DNA of 32,598 bases from Ectothiorhodospiraceae bacterium (lineage in GTDB: Bacteria; Pseudomonadota; Gammaproteobacteria; Nitrococcales; AK92), in NCBI GenBank assembly GCA_029268285.1, contig JAJUGG010000005.1, forward strand, positions 1 through 32,598, in the 5' to 3' direction. Positions 912 through 32,598 of the stretch are shown here, piece by piece (position 1 is the first letter of the stretch; every line of letters starts with the position of its first letter). The notes below the pieces were generated by a model. The model worked only from the letters and a program-made list of their open reading frames with translations. It did not search any database and was not told the origin of the DNA. The position numbers were made by a program, and so were the translations under genes.

Positions 912-2564
912 ATGCTAAAAAAAATCGCTCGCTTACTTACCGGTAGCATCCTCAACAAGTTGTTCGCCATCACCGGCCTAGGCACGGTGCTGGTCGTAGC
1001 CGCGGCGCTGTTCGGCATTTTGCAGGCCTGGCAGAGCCTGCAAGGCTTCGAGCACCTCATGGGGGAGGAGGTCGATCTCGCCAGCCGCATCGAACACCTC
1101 AAGCTCGAGTACGCACATCAGGAAAGCCTCTGGCAGTCGGTGCTGGTACGCGGCGACGATAACATCGACCGCGAGAAGTACCTCGAAGCGCTCGCGCAGC
1201 AGCGCCGCGATGTGGTGGAAGAGGCCGGCGAGCTGCTGGGTAGCGTCAGCGATCCGGTGGTACGGGATTCACTGCAGGCCTTCGTGCAGCGGCACGGCGA
1301 GATGGAGCAGCTCTACCGCGAGGCCTTCGAGACTTACGAGCTGCTGGGCTACAACGCGCGTATGGCCGACGACATGACGCGGGCCTCGGCGCTCGAACTC
1401 GAGGAACTGTTGAATGAGGCCTCGCGCATTCTGCAGGCCCAGGCGCAGGCGAAGACTCGCAGCAACATCGAAGAAGCCGGGGCGGTGATGGTGCAGAGCT
1501 TCGTCGCCATGGGGATTGCGATCGTCGTGGCTTTCGTGGTCTTCCTGCTACTGCTGCGCCGGAGCATTCTGAAGCCGACGCATGCTTTGGTAGAGGATCT
1601 GGAGCGCTTGGCAGAGGGCGATTTCTCTGTGCCCATCAAGGCCACGACGCGCGACGAGATCGGCAAGGTGGCCGTGAGCGCGCGTCAGTTGCAGGAGCGT
1701 CTCGGCCACGCCCTGGGTCAAATCGCCGATGCCGTAGCGCAGGTGGCGTCTTCGGCCGAAGAATTGGCCGTGGTCTCGGAGCAGACGACTCAAGGCGTTT
1801 CCCAGCAGCGCGGCGAAACCGCGCAGGTGGCGGCGGCCATGAACCAGATGAGTGCGACCGTTCAGGAGGTTGCGCGCCATGCCGCGCTGGCTGCCGAGTC
1901 GACCCAGGAGGCAGACCACAAGGCCCTGCATGGTCGCCAGGTAGTGGAGCGCACCACCGATGCCATTAATGCCCTGGCAGCGAACGTGGAACAGGCCGTG
2001 ACCGCCATCCGTCGTCTTGACGAAGACAGCGTGGCTATCGGTGCGGTGCTCGACGTGATTCGCGGCGTGGCCGAGCAGACCAATCTGCTGGCGCTCAATG
2101 CCGCCATCGAGGCGGCGCGTGCCGGCGAGCAGGGCCGCGGCTTTGCCGTGGTGGCCGATGAGGTGCGTACGCTGGCGCTGCGAACCCAGAAGTCCACCGA
2201 GGAAATCCAGGACATGGTCGAGCGTGTGCAGGCAGGGAGCGCCGATGCGGTGAAGGTGATGGACACCAGCCGCAGCAAGGCCGAGCAGGCGGTGGGAGAG
2301 GCGCGCGGCGCGGCTGAGTCCCTGCGCGCAATCACCGACGCGGTGGGCACCATCAAGGATATGAACAATCAGATCGCCAGTGCGGCCGAGGAGCAATCCG
2401 CCACCGCCGAGGAGATGAACCGCAATATCACCACCATCAGTCAGATTTCGGAGCAGAACGCGGACGGCGCGGCGCAGACTACCGCGGCGGGCGAAGAGCT
2501 TGCCCGCCTGGCAGCCGATCTTCAGTCCTTGGTCGGGCAGTTCCGGCTCGCCGGCAAGCGCTGA
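912..2564 (+). CDS. Methyl-accepting chemotaxis protein
   Basis: This 550-residue inner-membrane chemoreceptor senses a periplasmic signal and controls CheA/CheW. A first membrane helix is at about residues 17-40, a helical periplasmic domain of some 150 residues follows, the second helix is at about 194-216 and HAMP at about 217-270. The cytoplasmic signalling hairpin carries the conserved tip ([19 protein letters not shown] and [15 protein letters not shown], around residues 387-422). There is no C-terminal NWETF-type pentapeptide for CheR/CheB docking; it ends FRLAGKR. The periplasmic domain looks like a four-helix bundle but its ligand cannot be read. The ATG follows GAGGCGACAC. A run of eight A falls at codons 2-5. 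A terminator hairpin follows 16 nt after the stop. Confidence 0.95.
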
Positions 2565-2579
2565 AGCCGGCCCGACTCG

Positions 2580-2621
2580 GCAGGCTCTCCGCCCTTTATG
2601 CGAACGGGGAGCCTGCTTCTT
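2580..2621 (+). terminator. Rho-independent terminator after the chemoreceptor gene
   Basis: An 11-bp stem (one G-U pair) is formed by GCAGGCTCTCC (2580-2590) and GGGGAGCCTGC (2606-2616), with a 15-nt loop, followed by TTCTT. It lies between convergent genes and runs up to the stop codon of the BON gene, so the stem may also slow transcripts from the other side, although that strand has no T tract. Confidence 0.7.
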
Positions 2622-3343
2622 CAGCCGTTACGCATGCGTTCGCGAACCTGCAGGCGGTTCTCCACTCCGTGTACGCCGGGGATGTACCAGCAGTCGTAGC
2701 AAGCGATGCGGCGATTGACTTCGCTGCTTACCGTGCCTTCCAGGATGATGACCCGGTCGCGGGCGCGCACGAAGATCTCGTCGGCGTCGAAGGAAGGGTC
2801 CTTGTCCAGCACCATGCGCACGGTATCGGTGAGGTCGTCGTCATTGTCCTGCTCCGCGGGACGGACCCGAATACGGTTGTCGACATCGGCCGTGCCGGGC
2901 ACCCACCAGGCGATGACTTCAGCCAGGCGCCGGTGCGGCAGGCTCCACACCGCGCCGCTCAGGTGCACCATCGAGCTGCCTTGCCGCACCGTGACCCGCA
3001 GCCAGTTGCTTTCTTCGTCCTCCGGCGGTTGCTGGCTTTCATCCAGGATGGTGAAACCTCGGAATACCGGTTCCTCCATCAGTGCCGATAACACCGCGGC
3101 CCGCAGTCCGTCGCCATCCCTTTTCTGTCCTACCTGTACGCGTAGGTGATCATGGATTTCCTGGGTCCCGGCGACCTCCCGCGCAATCTGCAAGGCGCGA
3201 CGCTTGGCGACGATGTTTTCCACTTCGCCTTCCAGACAGAGCGTGCCCCGGTGACTGATTTCGATGGGAAAGCGGTGCAGGTTGATGTCCGGGTCGCGTT
3301 CCAGGGCCGCCCGTACCTGGTTAATCAGCGCCGGTCCGACCAT
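2621..3343 (-). CDS. Triple BON-domain protein
   Basis: The 240-residue protein consists of three BON-like modules, roughly residues 1-70, 77-162 and 170-235. Each has the alpha/beta pattern ending in a conserved glycine and a V..(N/D)RI/L..V segment such as VHGVENRLQV. BON domains usually bind phospholipid or other surfaces and occur in OsmY-type envelope proteins. No signal peptide is visible, so this copy looks cytoplasmic unless exported differently. The frame stays open upstream for 73 more codons, but the ATG at 3343 is preceded by AGGAGGTGAAC, a near-perfect ribosome binding site at proper spacing, which fixes the start. The middle module is divergent and longer. It is divergent from the lipid kinase. 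Confidence 0.85.
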   Translation of the reverse strand: MVGPALINQVRAALERDPDINLHRFPIEISHRGTLCLEGEVENIVAKRRALQIAREVAGTQEIHDHLRVQVGQKRDGDGLRAAVLSALMEEPVFRGFTILDESQQPPEDEESNWLRVTVRQGSSMVHLSGAVWSLPHRRLAEVIAWWVPGTADVDNRIRVRPAEQDNDDDLTDTVRMVLDKDPSFDADEIFVRARDRVIILEGTVSSEVNRRIACYDCWYIPGVHGVENRLQVRERMRNG

Positions 3344-14178: not shown

Positions 14179-16515
14179 TCAGCCCACTTCGTGCGCCAAG
14201 CGTTGATGCTGCAACAGCAGGGTGCAGTCTTCCGCCGACAGTGGACGGCTGAAATAGTAGCCCTGGATTTCGTCGCAGTCGTGTCGGCGCAGGAATTCCA
14301 GCTGTTCCAGCGTCTCTACGCCTTCGGCCGTGACCCGTAGCCCCATGTTCTTGGCCATGTCGATGATGGTGGCCGTGATGGCGGCGTTGTCGCTGTCCTC
14401 GGGGAGGTCATGGATAAAAGACTGGTCGATTTTCAAGCGATCCAAGGCAAAGCGCTTGAGATAGCTTAGCGAGGAATAGCCGGTGCCGAAGTCGTCGATG
14501 GTGATGGAGGTGCCGAGCGTCTTGAGCTCGTTCAGGGTCACGATCGCGTCCTCCGGGTCGTCGACGAGGTAGGTTTCCGTGAGTTCCAGTTCGAGAAAGC
14601 GGGCTTGAATGCCGGTGCGCTGGAGGGTGTTGGCCACATCCTCGGCCAGCTGGCCGTCGCGGAAACTGCGTCCTGAGATATTCACCGCCATGCGGATCTG
14701 CCCCAAGCCTTGATTGCGCCAGAGCGCATGCTGGCGGCAGGCCGTCTCCATCACCCAGCGGCCGAAGGGTACGATCAAGCCGCTTTCCTCGGCCAAGGGA
14801 ATGAAGCGAGCGGGCGAGACCATGCCCAGTTTCGGGTGGTTCCAGCGTAGCAGCGCTTCGACCGAGCTTATTTGGCCGGTCATTAAGTTGACCTGGGGCT
14901 GGTAGTGCAGCATCAGCTCGTTGCGTTCGAGCGCGCTACGCAGTTGCGTTTCCAGTGCAAGGCGCTCCATGAGCGCCGTGTTCATTTCTTCGGTGAAGAA
15001 CTGGAAGGTGTTGCGACCGCGCGCCTTGGCCCGGTGCATGGCGGTATCGGCATTCCCCAGCAGCGCCTGGCCGTCGGTACCGTCTTCGGGCGCGAGACTG
15101 ATGCCGATGCTCGCAGTAATCACTAATTGATGACTGTCGGCGCCCAGCGGTTCAGTGAAGGCCTCCAGCACCTGCTGGGCGAGGGTAGCTGCCTGCTGCG
15201 CATGGGTGAGATCGGTAAGCAGAACCGCAAACTCGTCGCCGCCCCAGCGCGCAACGATATCGCCTTCGCGCAATCGTTGCTGCAGCCGTCCGGCGGCCGC
15301 TTGCAGTAAACGATCGCCCGCGCTGTGGCCCAGGCTGTCGTTGAAGAGCTTGAAACGATCGAGATCGACGATCAGTACAGCCATTATGCCCCCATTGCGT
15401 TGCAGCTGATGCAGGGCGCGCGATAGGTGGTCCTGGAACAGTCGTCGGTTGGGCAGTTCGGTTACCGGGTCGTAGTGCGCCAGCCGATAGATGTGCGCCT
15501 GCGAGCGCTCCAATTCGGCGATCTGGCGCTCGAGGCTGTGCTTGGCGTCGAGTAGTTCCTGCGTGCGCAGGCTTACTTGCCGCTCCAGTTCATCGCCGGC
15601 CGCGCGCAGGCTTAGTCTTGCCCGCTGCCGCTCTTGAGTGATGCCGATAGCGGCGTAGACCGTCGTGCTCACGACGATCAGGTACACCTGGAGCAGAGCC
15701 AAGGCCATGTCCTTGGGCAATGTGCCGAACGGCCCGCGGCCGAGCATGGTGGCTGCAATGGCGAGGAAGGCGAGCAGCGACATAGCGGCCGTCGCTGCTC
15801 GCGGCGATAAGCGTGACGCCGCCCAGGCAAGTCCAGGCAAGACCAAATACGCCAGCGGGTAATGGCCGTGCTCGTTTCCGAGTGCACCAAAGAAGGTGTA
15901 GTAGGTAGAGGCGGCGGTGAAGCCGATCACCAGCACGGTCTCCGCGCTTGAGGCAGAGCCGATGCTGTCGCGATCGGGCCAGAGCGCGGTCAACAAGGGC
16001 GGAGCAAAAATCAGCGTACCGGCGGCGCCGGCCAGCCATAGACCGAGAAAGCCGGGGTCCGCGACAAGCGCCGGCATGCCGGCCACGGCGTAGACGGTGA
16101 CGTGCGCAGCCGCATGCAGGAAGCTCCCGACGAGCGCGCCGAACACAGCGAACAGCAGCACGCCGCGAGCCTGGTGCAGCGGATTACCATGACCGTACAG
16201 CCGCCGTAGCGCAAAAAGACTGCTCAACAGGGCGATGAGGGTGCCGAAGCCGAGCAGCAACGAGCCAATGAGGCCATAGCCCTGCCAGAGCGCGTGCCCC
16301 AGCGCGCCCAGCCACGTGCCGGCCCAGATGCTGCGGCCGAAGCGTAGAGCCAGTGCGAGCGCAACACCCAGTGCCGGGGCGAATGCATGCTGCGGCGTAA
16401 GAGTGGCAAGCAGTAGATAAATCGCTGCGGCCTGCAAGGCCCCAAGCCATGCGAGGATTGGGAAGCGCCAGTTATTCTTCTTCGGTTTCATTAGCTCATA
16501 CAGGGCGCGCAGCAT
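14179..16515 (-). CDS. MASE1-GGDEF-EAL c-di-GMP turnover protein
   Basis: A 778-residue inner-membrane protein. Residues of about 15-300 hold eight or so membrane helices matching a MASE1 sensor. A helical linker then leads to a GGDEF domain with intact GGDEF at 425-429 and an RxxD inhibitory site (REGD, 416-419), and then an EAL domain with EALLRW from 553, NISGRSF, ELTETYL, DDFGTGYSSL, KIDQSF and AEGVET. All catalytic residues I can check in both halves are present, so it could make or destroy c-di-GMP; dominance of one activity cannot be read. MASE1 ligands are mostly unknown. It is monocistronic, with AGGTGGG before the ATG. Confidence 0.93.
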   Translation of the reverse strand: MLRALYELMKPKKNNWRFPILAWLGALQAAAIYLLLATLTPQHAFAPALGVALALALRFGRSIWAGTWLGALGHALWQGYGLIGSLLLGFGTLIALLSSLFALRRLYGHGNPLHQARGVLLFAVFGALVGSFLHAAAHVTVYAVAGMPALVADPGFLGLWLAGAAGTLIFAPPLLTALWPDRDSIGSASSAETVLVIGFTAASTYYTFFGALGNEHGHYPLAYLVLPGLAWAASRLSPRAATAAMSLLAFLAIAATMLGRGPFGTLPKDMALALLQVYLIVVSTTVYAAIGITQERQRARLSLRAAGDELERQVSLRTQELLDAKHSLERQIAELERSQAHIYRLAHYDPVTELPNRRLFQDHLSRALHQLQRNGGIMAVLIVDLDRFKLFNDSLGHSAGDRLLQAAAGRLQQRLREGDIVARWGGDEFAVLLTDLTHAQQAATLAQQVLEAFTEPLGADSHQLVITASIGISLAPEDGTDGQALLGNADTAMHRAKARGRNTFQFFTEEMNTALMERLALETQLRSALERNELMLHYQPQVNLMTGQISSVEALLRWNHPKLGMVSPARFIPLAEESGLIVPFGRWVMETACRQHALWRNQGLGQIRMAVNISGRSFRDGQLAEDVANTLQRTGIQARFLELELTETYLVDDPEDAIVTLNELKTLGTSITIDDFGTGYSSLSYLKRFALDRLKIDQSFIHDLPEDSDNAAITATIIDMAKNMGLRVTAEGVETLEQLEFLRRHDCDEIQGYYFSRPLSAEDCTLLLQHQRLAHEVG

Positions 16516-16809: not shown

Positions 16810-17253
16810 TTAGGCTTCGCGAACCTGCTCGGCGATATTCTCCAGCGCGGCTTCGTCGTCTTCGCCAGCGGCTGCCGGGGCAATGCGCGCGACCGGCTGC
16901 TGGTCTTTGACATGGCTCTCGCCCACGAACTGTCCGCCGGACTCGATGATGAACTCGTTGCTCACCACTTCACCGAAGACCTTGCCGTTGCTGACGATCT
17001 CCAGGCGCTCGCAGTCCAGTCGGCCGTTGATATAACCGCTGACGACGATGTGCTGCGCCCGCAGCGTGCCCTCGAAGCTGCCGCTCTCGCCGACCGAGAC
17101 GTCGGCGCTGGATTCGATGCTGCCTTCGACGTTGCCGTCGATGTGCAGCGGTGCTTCCAGCGTCAATTCTCCGCGGATTCGACTGCCCGCAGCGATAATC
17201 GTCGTTCCTGCGGTGCCAGTTTTTGTCTTATTGCCTTTACTAATGAATCCCAT
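16810..17253 (-). CDS. Bactofilin
   Basis: A 147-residue bactofilin. A short basic N-terminal tail (MGFISKGNKTKTG) precedes the core beta-helix of about 90 residues, with repeating hydrophobic-glycine rungs such as IIAAGSRIRGEL, LHIDGNVEGSI, VSVGESGSFEGTL, IVVSGYINGRL and LEIVSNGKVFGEV; an acidic helical tail follows. Bactofilins polymerise without nucleotide and act as membrane-associated scaffolds in shape, stalk or chemosensory positioning. The gene begins inside the M23 peptidase gene with a 91-nt overlap and its own purine-rich ribosome binding site (AGGGAGGGACGGGTGCA), so expression is tied to that of the peptidase. Confidence 0.93.
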   Translation of the reverse strand: MGFISKGNKTKTGTAGTTIIAAGSRIRGELTLEAPLHIDGNVEGSIESSADVSVGESGSFEGTLRAQHIVVSGYINGRLDCERLEIVSNGKVFGEVVSNEFIIESGGQFVGESHVKDQQPVARIAPAAAGEDDEAALENIAEQVREA

Positions 17254-18110
17254 TGCACCCGTCCCTCCCTCTCGAATAAGGAATCGTAGTTATCGAGGCT
17301 CCACTCCATGAAGGCTACTGGGTCGAGCCGACGCTGGATATAGCGGACCTCATAGTGAAGGTGTGGCCCGCTGCTCAAGCCGGTACTGCCGCTGCGCGCG
17401 ATCATGTCGCCTTTGCGCACGAAGTCACCGGCCTTGACTGTGAAGTCCTGCAGATGGCCGTAGAAACTGTTGAACCCGTAGGGGTGGTGGAGGATGACGA
17501 GGTTGCCGAGGCCGCTGCTCTTGTGGTAGCCGGCCCATTCCACGACGCCGTCGGCGGTGGCGTATACCGGCGTGCCATGGGGGGCGCGCAAGTCTACGCC
17601 GGCGTGGAAGGCGCGCTCGCCTTTGACCGGATGCGTGCGGTAACCAAATTGGCTGGTAACGCCCTTGTACTCCACCGGATAGCCGCTGGGAATGCTCTGC
17701 AGTATGGAAACCTTCTCCAGCGCAGTCAGGCTCGCGGTGTCGAGGCGCGCGTGGATGTCCTGTTCGGGAGCGGGCTCTAGCCCGATCATCACTTCGAGTG
17801 TGCCGAGTTCGTCGCTAACCAGCGCGAGCTCATGCTCCTTTTTGGCGATGGCTGCCTGCAGCTCGGCATGCTCCTGAAGCAGTAACGCGTACTCGCCCTG
17901 CGTCAGATTACGGCGCAGCTGCAAATCGACCAGCTCGCTCTGAACCGTATCGAGCTTGGCGCTCAGCCAATAGATGACCAGCACGCCGGTAAGCAGCGTC
18001 CCCAGTAGTGCGAGCGCCACCCCAAGCGCGTAAGTCTTGGCTACTTGCGTCAGCGAATAATGACGTGCGCCGCGAAAATCCGTGATTGTTATTACGAAAC
18101 GGTTCCGCAC
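17163..18110 (-). CDS. M23-family peptidoglycan endopeptidase
   Basis: A 315-residue, membrane-anchored M23 metallopeptidase. One helix at about residues 28-50 (LGVALALLGTLLTGVLVIYWL) and a coiled coil at about 52-105 precede the catalytic domain. The zinc ligands are visible: H169 and D173 in FHAGVDLRAPHG, and H250/H252 in GPHLHYEVR, with GFNSFYGHLQ between. It should cut peptide cross-links of peptidoglycan in the periplasm. The start is GTG at 18110, preceded by AGGAATAAACCG. The last 30 codons are shared with bactofilin in another frame. The pairing resembles the H. pylori Csd1/CcmA shape module, an inference from known biology. Confidence 0.92.
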   Translation of the reverse strand: MRNRFVITITDFRGARHYSLTQVAKTYALGVALALLGTLLTGVLVIYWLSAKLDTVQSELVDLQLRRNLTQGEYALLLQEHAELQAAIAKKEHELALVSDELGTLEVMIGLEPAPEQDIHARLDTASLTALEKVSILQSIPSGYPVEYKGVTSQFGYRTHPVKGERAFHAGVDLRAPHGTPVYATADGVVEWAGYHKSSGLGNLVILHHPYGFNSFYGHLQDFTVKAGDFVRKGDMIARSGSTGLSSGPHLHYEVRYIQRRLDPVAFMEWSLDNYDSLFEREGRVQWDSLVKAIRQKLAPQERRLSLRAVESAEN

Positions 18111-29203: not shown

Positions 29204-32200
29204 TTAGTGTCCTCTCGACTGCCGGTACTGCCGCAGGCGGGCCACGCCGCCTTCCATCAGTGAATACACGGCAGGTACTACAACTAAGGTAAGCAGGGTG
29301 GACGTGATCATGCCACCAATCACGGCCACCGATAGCGGACCGTTGGTGTCGGCGCCGGCGCCGAAGCCTAGCGCGGCCGGCAGCAACGCGAGAATGACTG
29401 TCAGCGATGTCATCAGCACAGGACGTAGTCGAATGGGGCAGGCTTCCAACAGGGCCTCGCTGATGGCCTTGCCCTCCGCGCGCAACTGGTTGGTGAGATC
29501 CACCAGCAGGATGGAGTTCTTTGCCACCAGGCCGAGCAGCAATACCAGGCCGATCATGGAGAAGATGTTCAGCGTGTGGCCGGTCAGCCACAGCGCCGCA
29601 ACGCCGCCGATCATGGCCAGCGGCTGCGCCATCATAATGATGATCGGCTGCAGGAAGCTGTTGAACTGGCTGGCGAGCACCATGTAGACCAGCACGATGG
29701 CGAGGACGAAGGCAAAGCTGATATAGCCGACGGTCTTGCCGAACTCCTCCGCTTCGCCTTGCATTTGCACCTGATAACCGAGCGGGAGGATCTCCTCTGC
29801 CACGTTTTCGACCATGGTGACCGCTTCGCCGAGGGGAACTTCAGGCGTGCTGTAGAAATGCGCCGAGTACTGCAGGTTGAAGCGGCTGATGACAGCCGGG
29901 CCCAGTTCCTGATGGAACTCGACGATATTGTCCAAGCGCACCAGCTCGCCACTGTTGCTGCGCACGTAAATCTGCCGTAGGTCCTCGACGCTGTTGAACG
30001 CATCCTCTTTGCCTTTCAGGCGGATGTCGTAGCGCTCGCCTTCGCCGATCTCGTCATCGTACTTCGCCACATCCAGGCCGCCGACCAGCATGTTGATCGC
30101 CAGGGCCACGTCCTGGGCGGAGATGCCCAGCGCCGAAGCGCGGATGCGGTCGAGGTCGAAGCGAACCTGCGGCAGGTCGAGCTGCAGGTCGAGGTCCAGG
30201 CGCCCGATGCCCGGCTCCTGGGCGAGTCGCTCATAGACTTGGCGAGCGTAGTCCGCCACGCGATCGAGCTCGGGGCCGCTGACCACGAACTGGAGCGGTT
30301 CGCCGCGCGCGCCGCCGACGATGGGAACGGCAGTCGGAAAGGCCTGTACGCCGGGGATGCGCGCCAGCAGGCCGCTGAGACGATCGGTCAGCTCTTGCTG
30401 CGATATCTCGCGCTCGTCGCGCGGAATCATGCGCACGACGGCGATGGCTTCGTTTACCTGGCCTTCTTCGCCGATGCCGACAGCGGTGAAGTAGGTGGCG
30501 ATTTCCGGCTGCTGCGCCAGGATGTCCTCGATCATGGCAAGGCGCTGTTCGGTGTAATCGATGCTCGAGCCGAGTGGAGTGCGGATGATCACCAGGAAGG
30601 TGCCCTGATCCTCTTCCGGCACGAAGCCCTTGCCGACGTTGGCGAAGAAGTAGCCGCTCGTGAGGACTACCAGTGCCGACGCGCCGACTACCGTCCAGCG
30701 GAAGCGCAGCGCGACGCGTAGCGCGCGGGCATAGCCGCGCTCCATGGCGCGGAAGCTGTTCTCCAGCGCGTTATAGACCTTGCCGTGCTGCTTCTCGACC
30801 TTGAGGAAGCGCGAGCACAGCATGGGCGTCAGGGTCATGGAGACGAACCAGGACACCAGCACGCCGATGGTGACGACCACTGCGAAGGACTCGAAGAAGC
30901 GGCCGATGATGCCGCCCATGAACACCACCGGCGCGAAAATGGAGACCAACGTCAGCGTTGCGGCGAGCACCGCGAACACGACCTGATTGGTTCCGTTGAC
31001 GGCTGCCGTAACCGGGTCGGGATCGATTTCTTCGCGGTGCCGGAAGACGTTCTCCAACACCACGATGGCATCGTCGACCACCACGCCGATGAGCAGCAGC
31101 AGTGCCAGCAGCGTCATGGTGTTGATGGTGTAGCCAAACATCAGCATGACCGCGAAGGCGCCGAACAGCGAAACCGGAATGGCCGTGGCGATGATCAGCG
31201 TGGAGCGGATGCTCTTCAGGAACAGCCACACTACCAAGGCCGCCAGCAGCGTGCCGAGGATGAGGTGCTCCTCCAGCGCGTGCACCATTTCCAGAATGAA
31301 CGTGGAGGTATCGGAGGCAACGCGAATTTCGAGGCCGGGCGGCAATTGCGGCCGGATTTCTTCGTCGATTCGGCGCTTGACCTCCTCGATGATGGCGACT
31401 GTGTTGGTGCCGGCGATCTTGACGACGCCCAGGCCCACGGTCGGCTCGCCGTTGAAGCGCGCAAGGCTGCGATAATCCTCCAGCGCGTCTTCGACTTCGG
31501 CGATATCGGCGAGGCGCACCGGAGCGCCTTCGCGGTAGGCAAGGATCATCTGCGCGAGTTCGTCGATATCGTGGAACTCGAGATCGAGGTCGAGCAGCAT
31601 CTCGGTATCGCGGCTGACGAGGAAGCCGCCGGGCAGCTGCACATGTTCGCGCTGGAAGGCGGCGTACAGATCCTGCGCGGTGATCCCGAAGGCCGCCATG
31701 CGGATCGGGTCGAGTTCGACGCGGATGGTGCGCTCGCGCAGGCCGCCGATACGGATTTCGCCGACGCCGGCAATGGTCTCCAGGCGCTTTTTGATGACGT
31801 CATTGGCGTAGAGGTTGAGCTGCTGCAGCGTGCGGTCGCCTTGCAGCGAGAGCCACATCACCGGCTCGGCATTAGTCTCTACTTTCGCCACCACCGGCGG
31901 ATCGGCATCGTCCGGCAGCAGGTTGAGGACCTGGTTGATCTTGGCCTGAACCTCGTTGAAGGCGACATCTACGTTCTTATCGAGCTCGAAGGTGATGGCC
32001 ACGACCGAGGCGCCGGGCGAGGACGAGGACTGGATGTTCTCGATGCCCGGGACGCTGTTGACCGCCGTTTCGATCACGTTGGTGATCGAGGAGTCGACGA
32101 TTTCCGGGTTGGCGCCGGGCATCACGGTGGTGACGGCGATGACAGGAAACTCGATGGTCGGAAAGCGATCGACGCCGAGCCGCAGGAACGCGATCAGACC

Positions 32201-32272
32201 GAACAGGACCAGCACTGCGTTCATCATGAACGCAAATACCGGTTGCTTGATAGAAAGCCCCGGCAAGGACAT
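29204..32272 (-). CDS. HAE-1 RND multidrug efflux pump
   Basis: A 1022-residue inner-membrane RND transporter. The N-terminal helix (FAFMMNAVLVLFGLIAFLRLG), two large periplasmic loops and 12 helices follow the AcrB plan. The proton-relay motif GVVVDDAIVVLEN lies at about residues 395-407 with the double Asp, and the partner Lys is in LVAKNSILLVDLTNQL, near 917. The size and VDRFPTIEFPVIAVTT opening fit the MdtB/MexF-like HAE-1 group, but substrates are not readable. It is the second gene of the adaptor-pump-channel operon, with a 1-nt gap from the adaptor stop and 2 nt to the channel gene. Confidence 0.96.
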   Translation of the reverse strand: MSLPGLSIKQPVFAFMMNAVLVLFGLIAFLRLGVDRFPTIEFPVIAVTTVMPGANPEIVDSSITNVIETAVNSVPGIENIQSSSSPGASVVAITFELDKNVDVAFNEVQAKINQVLNLLPDDADPPVVAKVETNAEPVMWLSLQGDRTLQQLNLYANDVIKKRLETIAGVGEIRIGGLRERTIRVELDPIRMAAFGITAQDLYAAFQREHVQLPGGFLVSRDTEMLLDLDLEFHDIDELAQMILAYREGAPVRLADIAEVEDALEDYRSLARFNGEPTVGLGVVKIAGTNTVAIIEEVKRRIDEEIRPQLPPGLEIRVASDTSTFILEMVHALEEHLILGTLLAALVVWLFLKSIRSTLIIATAIPVSLFGAFAVMLMFGYTINTMTLLALLLLIGVVVDDAIVVLENVFRHREEIDPDPVTAAVNGTNQVVFAVLAATLTLVSIFAPVVFMGGIIGRFFESFAVVVTIGVLVSWFVSMTLTPMLCSRFLKVEKQHGKVYNALENSFRAMERGYARALRVALRFRWTVVGASALVVLTSGYFFANVGKGFVPEEDQGTFLVIIRTPLGSSIDYTEQRLAMIEDILAQQPEIATYFTAVGIGEEGQVNEAIAVVRMIPRDEREISQQELTDRLSGLLARIPGVQAFPTAVPIVGGARGEPLQFVVSGPELDRVADYARQVYERLAQEPGIGRLDLDLQLDLPQVRFDLDRIRASALGISAQDVALAINMLVGGLDVAKYDDEIGEGERYDIRLKGKEDAFNSVEDLRQIYVRSNSGELVRLDNIVEFHQELGPAVISRFNLQYSAHFYSTPEVPLGEAVTMVENVAEEILPLGYQVQMQGEAEEFGKTVGYISFAFVLAIVLVYMVLASQFNSFLQPIIIMMAQPLAMIGGVAALWLTGHTLNIFSMIGLVLLLGLVAKNSILLVDLTNQLRAEGKAISEALLEACPIRLRPVLMTSLTVILALLPAALGFGAGADTNGPLSVAVIGGMITSTLLTLVVVPAVYSLMEGGVARLRQYRQSRGH

Positions 32273-32273
32273 G

Positions 32274-32598
32274 TCAGAGCTCCTCTACCACATCGACCGG
32301 CGCGCCGTCGGAGAGGAAAGAGGCGCCGTCCACAGCCACCACGGCGTCGGCTGCAAGCCCGTCCAGGATTTCTACCTGCCCCTGCTTGCGGGTACCGATG
32401 GACACCTGGCGCGCATGCGCCACACCGTCGATTATCTCGTACACCACGATGCCTGCCGGGCGCCGAACGGCGCTATTCTCCGGAACCAGCACGCTATCAC
32501 GCTGCTCGATGACGACTTCACCGACGACGCTGGCGCCGGCGCGCCAGCCGCCGGGATTGGGCAATTCCACGATCGCTTCCAGCGATCGGCTGCCCGTC
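32274..32598 (-). CDS. RND periplasmic adaptor, C-terminal part
   Basis: The frame runs in from the right edge and ends at 32274, giving the last 107 or so residues of a membrane fusion protein (HlyD/AcrA family). The visible portion has NPGGWRAGASVVGEVVIEQRDSVLVPENSAV, the beta-barrel to membrane-proximal domain transition usual in adaptors, then VYEIIDGVAHARQVSIGTRKQGQVEILDGLAADAVVAVDGA. It would bridge the pump and the TolC-like channel. The TGA stop is 1 nt before the pump's ATG. The 5' end, signal peptide and operon promoter lie outside the window. Confidence 0.92.
   Translation of the reverse strand, partial: TGSRSLEAIVELPNPGGWRAGASVVGEVVIEQRDSVLVPENSAVRRPAGIVVYEIIDGVAHARQVSIGTRKQGQVEILDGLAADAVVAVDGASFLSDGAPVDVVEEL

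Follow-up and report, generated by a model that had tools for sequence, protein, structure and literature searches.

An M23 metallopeptidase gene and a bactofilin gene of an Ectothiorhodospiraceae bacterium overlap out of frame, and the start of the bactofilin at one invariant tryptophan codon of the peptidase is fixed in almost all relatives examined over three phyla, unlike the length of the overlap. Judged from codon comparisons in both genes, about 90 nt are truly dual-coded. We propose one account of this arrangement, to which we assign a probability of about 0.77: the two genes would encode a cell-shape module, the shared DNA would serve both proteins, the bactofilin would initiate independently at a Shine-Dalgarno sequence written into peptidase codons, and its start position would have stayed fixed from early in the history of the family, both protein ends being required.

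The overlapping gene pair

The window is the whole stretch of 32,598 nt that was analysed. Both genes were identified by their open reading frames and Pfam matches on its minus strand: a metallopeptidase of the Csd1/LmdC type (17163..18110, 315 amino acids, GTG start) and a CcmA/BacA-type bactofilin (16810..17253, 147 amino acids, ATG start). The 91-nt overlap reported in the initial annotation (17163..17253, minus strand) is confirmed, with the two frames being different; its length is 1 mod 3, and third positions of peptidase codons are first bases of bactofilin codons. At 17250..17253 (minus strand), the A of CAA (Gln286) followed by TGG (the invariant Trp287) provides the bactofilin ATG. 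Ten nucleotides before it lies the Shine-Dalgarno sequence AGGGAGG (17264..17270, minus strand), within the peptidase codons for FEREGRV. Upstream of this ATG there is no better-fitting bactofilin start, and the start cannot fall after the overlap because the Pfam domain begins at residue 18.

The bactofilin matches the Pfam family Bactofilin (1.6e-24, residues 18-113), a core with flexible tails. Its residues 1-30 lie inside the overlap, comprising the N-terminal tail and 13 residues at the beginning of the Pfam domain (residues 18-30; 17163..17202, minus strand), and the earlier claim that the shared DNA covers the first rung of the bactofilin core is a fair description. The dual-coded tail MGFISKGNK (17227..17253, minus strand) resembles bactofilin membrane-targeting sequences, for which the consensus MFSKKKK has been reported (PMC12448750). 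The likeness consists in a short hydrophobic, lysine-bearing N-terminus ahead of the β-helix; from its sequence only, the tail fits that consensus loosely and is a putative targeting signal. It differs in that the consensus here is M[GA]x[FI]xxK, with the hydrophobic residues at positions 3-4, and in that every base of the putative tail is common to the peptidase. Such starts occur in 51 of 68 non-redundant linked pairs, in which a bactofilin adjoins the peptidase, compared with 3% expected if the peptidase is held fixed and codons are shuffled. CcmA of Helicobacter pylori behaves like a deletion when it lacks its N-terminal region (PMC9507126). In its bactofilin frame, the overlap would encode a membrane-targeting tail and the start of the β-helix.

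The window's own genome contains a second bactofilin-like stretch (G000:C71:9912-10226) with one in-frame TAG, which is 47% identical to the bactofilin of the window. Just downstream of the latter, at a distance of about 300 nt and on the same strand, a MASE1-GGDEF-EAL protein is encoded (14179-16515). Elsewhere in the window, a 1022-codon ORF on the minus strand (29204-32272) faces an antisense 575-codon ORF on the plus strand (30785-32512), which is probably a by-product of GC-rich DNA.

The peptidase consists of a putatively cytoplasmic N-terminal motif, one probable membrane helix, a coiled coil, the M23 domain and a C-terminal helix; a hydrophobic stretch and a long helix are predicted at residues 20-108 of the AlphaFold model. 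The catalytic domain (Peptidase_M23, 1.2e-32, residues 168-264; 17319..17609, minus strand) carries the zinc-ligand motifs HxxxD and HxH, and H169, D173, H250 and H252 are invariant. The proposal that the pair is Csd1/CcmA-like is borne out by sequence and fold: the closest solved relative by sequence is H. pylori Csd1 (5j1l_A, 2.3e-49, with an alignment reaching residue 310), which also ranks first for the peptidase model in Foldseek (TM to target 0.92), the top matches being 5j1l, 5j1m and 5j1k chains with target TM values of 0.84-0.94. By the same comparison, the peptidase carries a helical domain flanking the M23 domain, a feature only of Csd1 and Csd2.

The alignment with Csd1 extends into the overlap (FEREGRVQWDSLVKAIRQKLAPQERRLS versus FNKERSIRWQSLITIINRLMQKQDQRLS). 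AlphaFold predicts a single helix at residues 287-314 (17169..17252, minus strand), nearly coincident with the dual-coded stretch, and this segment aligns with Csd1 helix α4, which packs with Csd2 in a four-helix bundle with interface residues Arg286, Arg296 and Gln299 (PMC5053510). The peptidase frame of the overlap would accordingly be expected to encode the last helix of a helical dimerisation domain. At the other end, the putatively cytoplasmic stretch MRNRFVITITDFRGARHYSL (18051..18110, minus strand) stands out by its sequence conservation; the equivalent region of Hyphomonas neptunium LmdC binds BacA (PMC10945521), and by analogy a similar role may apply in the present species. We infer that peptidase and bactofilin may form a complex and act in cell shape here, as a putative membrane-anchored periplasmic endopeptidase and a cytoplasmic scaffold that would place or control it.

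The bactofilin start register in related loci

Searches of relatives, the class, other phyla and GTDB contigs yielded 233 distinct peptidase loci, 147 of them with a bactofilin nearby. Four of these (L111, L114, L128 and L132) were excluded, being other M23 types that lack the tail and have a bactofilin neighbor without overlap, and 143 remained for an automatic scan. In 139 of the 143, the third base of a peptidase codon and the TG of the following Trp codon together form the bactofilin start (138 ATG, one TTG). The anchoring Trp sits in a W-x-S-L motif, and the overlap measures 28-136 nt, always 1 mod 3. Locus L009 adds one anchored pair, and L249 (G488), beyond the distance limit of the scan, another one with a complete bactofilin and the longest overlap seen, 208 nt. 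Altogether, 141 of 144 related pairs from Gammaproteobacteria, Campylobacterota and Fusobacteriota show the Trp-anchored register, with lengths varying from 28 to 208 nt. The three exceptions (L262, L265 and L267) belong to a single clade of Campylobacterota. Lineages with the register include Halorhodospira relatives from the window's order, Vibrio, Photobacterium, Methylococcaceae, Sulfurimonas, Campylobacter and Helicobacter as well as Fusobacteriota such as Propionigenium. This conservation is unusually deep, and the phase 1 mod 3 is the rarer one among long overlaps (PMC10666635).

An overlap of exactly 91 nt was found in 16 loci, mostly of the window's order. We rejected a conserved 91-nt length as the key feature, the fixed part being the start register. 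The initial annotation had raised a sequencing frameshift in the peptidase tail as a way in which the overlap could be spurious. No point in support of such a sequencing or assembly error was found; it is excluded because relatives from the same family and order share the 91-nt overlap, and the arrangement recurs in 68 non-redundant relatives, complete single-contig genomes among them. We regard it as refuted and give it practically no credence.

The base preceding TGG is an A in 67 of 68 non-redundant linked peptidases versus 12 of 24 unlinked ones (Fisher p = 8e-8); these raw counts include related species from a sample heavy in Campylobacterota and Vibrionaceae, and the unlinked control set is small, with two relics (L151 and L158) among its 24 non-redundant members. 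Counted over phylogeny-independent pairs, the associations are weaker, with 4.5 for and 0 against (median p 0.06) for the ATG and 6.1 for and 0.1 against (median p 0.03) for the Shine-Dalgarno sequence.

L009 (G005, about 2334-3100) harbors two tandem bactofilins: the first is diverged and has the 91-nt overlap with the peptidase, and the second, downstream copy is closer to the bactofilin of the window.

Constraint on both reading frames

Strong mutual constraint is expected in this phase because the wobble position of the bactofilin is the second position of peptidase codons and the peptidase wobble is the first position of bactofilin codons. In 57 disjoint linked pairs, the identity of codons for the same amino acid in the peptidase is 0.57-0.60 upstream and 0.86 in the ten codons before the Trp. 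It reaches 0.89 in the seven codons after the Trp, compared with 0.35 in ten unlinked pairs. For the bactofilins of the 57 pairs, the corresponding values are 0.84 within the overlap and 0.56 beyond it. Both genes therefore conserve synonymous codons over the overlap, a pattern absent from peptidases that have no bactofilin after them, in agreement with the earlier suggestion that both frames are constrained. Of what the initial annotation proposed to look for in aligned homologues, both frames are kept, each under constraint; the overlap length is not.

We also held the bactofilin protein fixed, shuffled its codons by local usage and compared the resulting peptidase frame with the tails of unlinked peptidases. 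The native peptidase frame resembles these tails more than the recoded bactofilins do in 62 of 68 non-redundant pairs, and none of 300 recodings of the window's bactofilin matched them as well.

These data bear on the possibility that the peptidase passively lost its stop codon and reads on into the bactofilin, with a shared tail devoid of function. An open frame is indeed probable in GC-rich DNA: synonymous recoding of the window's bactofilin codons leaves a 29-codon alternative frame open with P = 0.81, and we rejected the open frame of the window alone as evidence for coding. Tail length is variable, and the bactofilin sequence favors the 91-nt stop, with the first stop falling at this position in 51% of recodings; in the window's clade, GELT codons of the bactofilin itself contribute to where the stop falls. 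A length of 91 nt is therefore in part passive. On the other hand, the tail following Trp287 is also retained by peptidases lacking a bactofilin neighbor downstream and aligns with an ordered dimer helix of Csd1, and synonymous constraint is present in both genes. Passive overrun is largely refuted for about residues 287-300 and very improbable as an explanation of the overlap; it may be the source of the last, variable peptidase residues.

Translation of the bactofilin

The Shine-Dalgarno sequence of the bactofilin has an energy of -11.9 kcal/mol in the window, equaled in only 3% of synonymous recodings, versus -4.3 at the peptidase's own GTG start. Linked pairs show a mean of -8.2 kcal/mol versus -5.0 after recoding, encoded in the peptidase codons FExExx[VI]; no such excess was found in unlinked peptidases (-4.0 versus -4.4 recoded). 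The difference between the two starts of the window suggests that bactofilin output may exceed peptidase output rather than match it 1:1.

The initial annotation had proposed synthesis of both proteins in a fixed ratio by reinitiation; in this reading, a ribosome that has completed the peptidase would move back and begin anew on the bactofilin. In its favor, translational coupling is common at short overlaps, subunits of complexes are overrepresented among overlapping pairs (PMC10666635), and a 17-bp overlap in H. neptunium has been interpreted as coupling (PMC10945521). Here, the peptidase stop lies 88 nt past the bactofilin start, with no stop at or near the latter, and across species the overlaps of 28-208 nt show no sign that a short distance is selected for. 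In published measurements, termination-reinitiation drops almost to nothing at 20-38 nt (PMC10666635), although these concerned gaps, and applying them to a backward step of 88 nt extrapolates from the data. Moreover, deletion and complementation of either csd1 or ccmA in H. pylori leaves expression of the partner unchanged (PMC9507126). Because of the far and variable stop, the strong dedicated Shine-Dalgarno sequence and the independence of the H. pylori genes, we prefer de novo initiation; a fixed ratio by reinitiation is unlikely. Independent initiation of the bactofilin is the more likely mode and may be assisted by ribosomes on the peptidase gene that hold the mRNA open, without a ribosome stopping and stepping back.

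Programmed -1 frameshifting would yield a peptidase-bactofilin fusion. The bactofilin does lie in the -1 frame, and 18 of 68 pairs contain an in-register slippery heptamer, but the slippery site is not conserved among the 68, whereas start codon and Shine-Dalgarno sequence are. From the topology, a fusion would place the cytoplasmic bactofilin in the periplasm, and we consider this mechanism extremely improbable.

Separated genes and relics

Homologues in which the peptidase stops before the bactofilin, named in the initial annotation as the case against its reading, do occur in L262, L265 and L267, yet both parts survive in L262: the bactofilin starts 56 nt past the peptidase stop, and WKSL and MAMFSSNDK are both present. 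Separation in this clade is a derived state. Family f2 from the window's order has no bactofilin downstream of the peptidase, yet retains VKWD-L-AVR-RLN-RLTMR; the bactofilins of these genomes are located elsewhere, and most retain an MGLFG...K start. The relics L151 and L158 have lost the body of the bactofilin, of which roughly the first 30 codons persist within the peptidase tail. Judged from f2, L262 and the relics, each protein appears to need its own part. The overlap itself is dispensable, because some relatives lack any adjoining bactofilin. The linked state seems to predate several of the unlinked ones; 11-12 changes between linked and unlinked state are required by the tree, from which alone gain and loss cannot be separated.

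Vibrionaceae genomes such as G424, G810 and G914 contain at least two copies of the Csd1/LmdC-type peptidase each; the second copy sampled in G914 (L282) has no bactofilin beside it.

Implications

The locus represents a rare, well-controlled case of long-lived same-strand dual coding in cellular genes, and its linked, separated and relic states are natural experiments that allow testing why the overlap persists. It is possible, though rather doubtful, that the overlap itself has a regulatory function and has been retained as such in three phyla, with ribosomes translating the peptidase passing over the bactofilin start and thereby gating it. If so, a Shine-Dalgarno sequence, a start codon, a membrane anchor and a dimer helix would be packed into about 120 nt, and few known out-of-frame overlaps in bacteria would be conserved so deeply in a fixed register. 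In practice, any truncation or tag at the N-terminus of the bactofilin or the C-terminus of the peptidase alters both proteins. Automatic annotation may also overlook where the bactofilin truly starts, as it did for CcmA of H. pylori G27 (PMC6590870).

Comparison with known systems

The initial annotation regarded the long overlap as the new point. This does not hold, given the overlaps already published: 82 nt for H. pylori csd1-ccmA, as quoted in PMC9507126 from Sycuro et al. 2010, and 64 bp for Campylobacter jejuni 1105-1104 (PMC10151779). In the literature searched, we found neither the Trp-anchored register shared by three phyla nor the synonymous constraint on two frames nor the embedded Shine-Dalgarno sequence.

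H. pylori csd1-ccmA shares the gene order, with the M23 peptidase upstream of the bactofilin, the phase, and peptidase homology through the overlapped helix. Taking the quoted length, 82 equals 1 plus 26 codons plus the stop, which puts the Csd1 anchor at residue 287 of 312 and the bactofilin start at the same Trp as here; the overlap is then 9 nt shorter than the 91 nt of the window. H. pylori differs in its additional partners Csd2, Csd5 and Csd7 and in Csd5-dependent localization. Its CcmA does not directly bind Csd1 (PMC10151779), which counts against the account proposed here. The C. jejuni pair agrees in order and phase (64 = 1 mod 3), but its peptidase has a shorter tail, and deletion of the bactofilin is almost without effect on shape (PMC10151779). 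H. neptunium lmdC-bacA likewise pairs a bitopic M23 endopeptidase with a bactofilin; its 17-bp overlap, however, is 2 mod 3 and thus in the other phase, outside the Trp-anchored register. The csd1-ccmA type of overlap is therefore already known, and the present analysis adds the fixed Trp-anchored start, the constraint on two frames and the embedded Shine-Dalgarno sequence.
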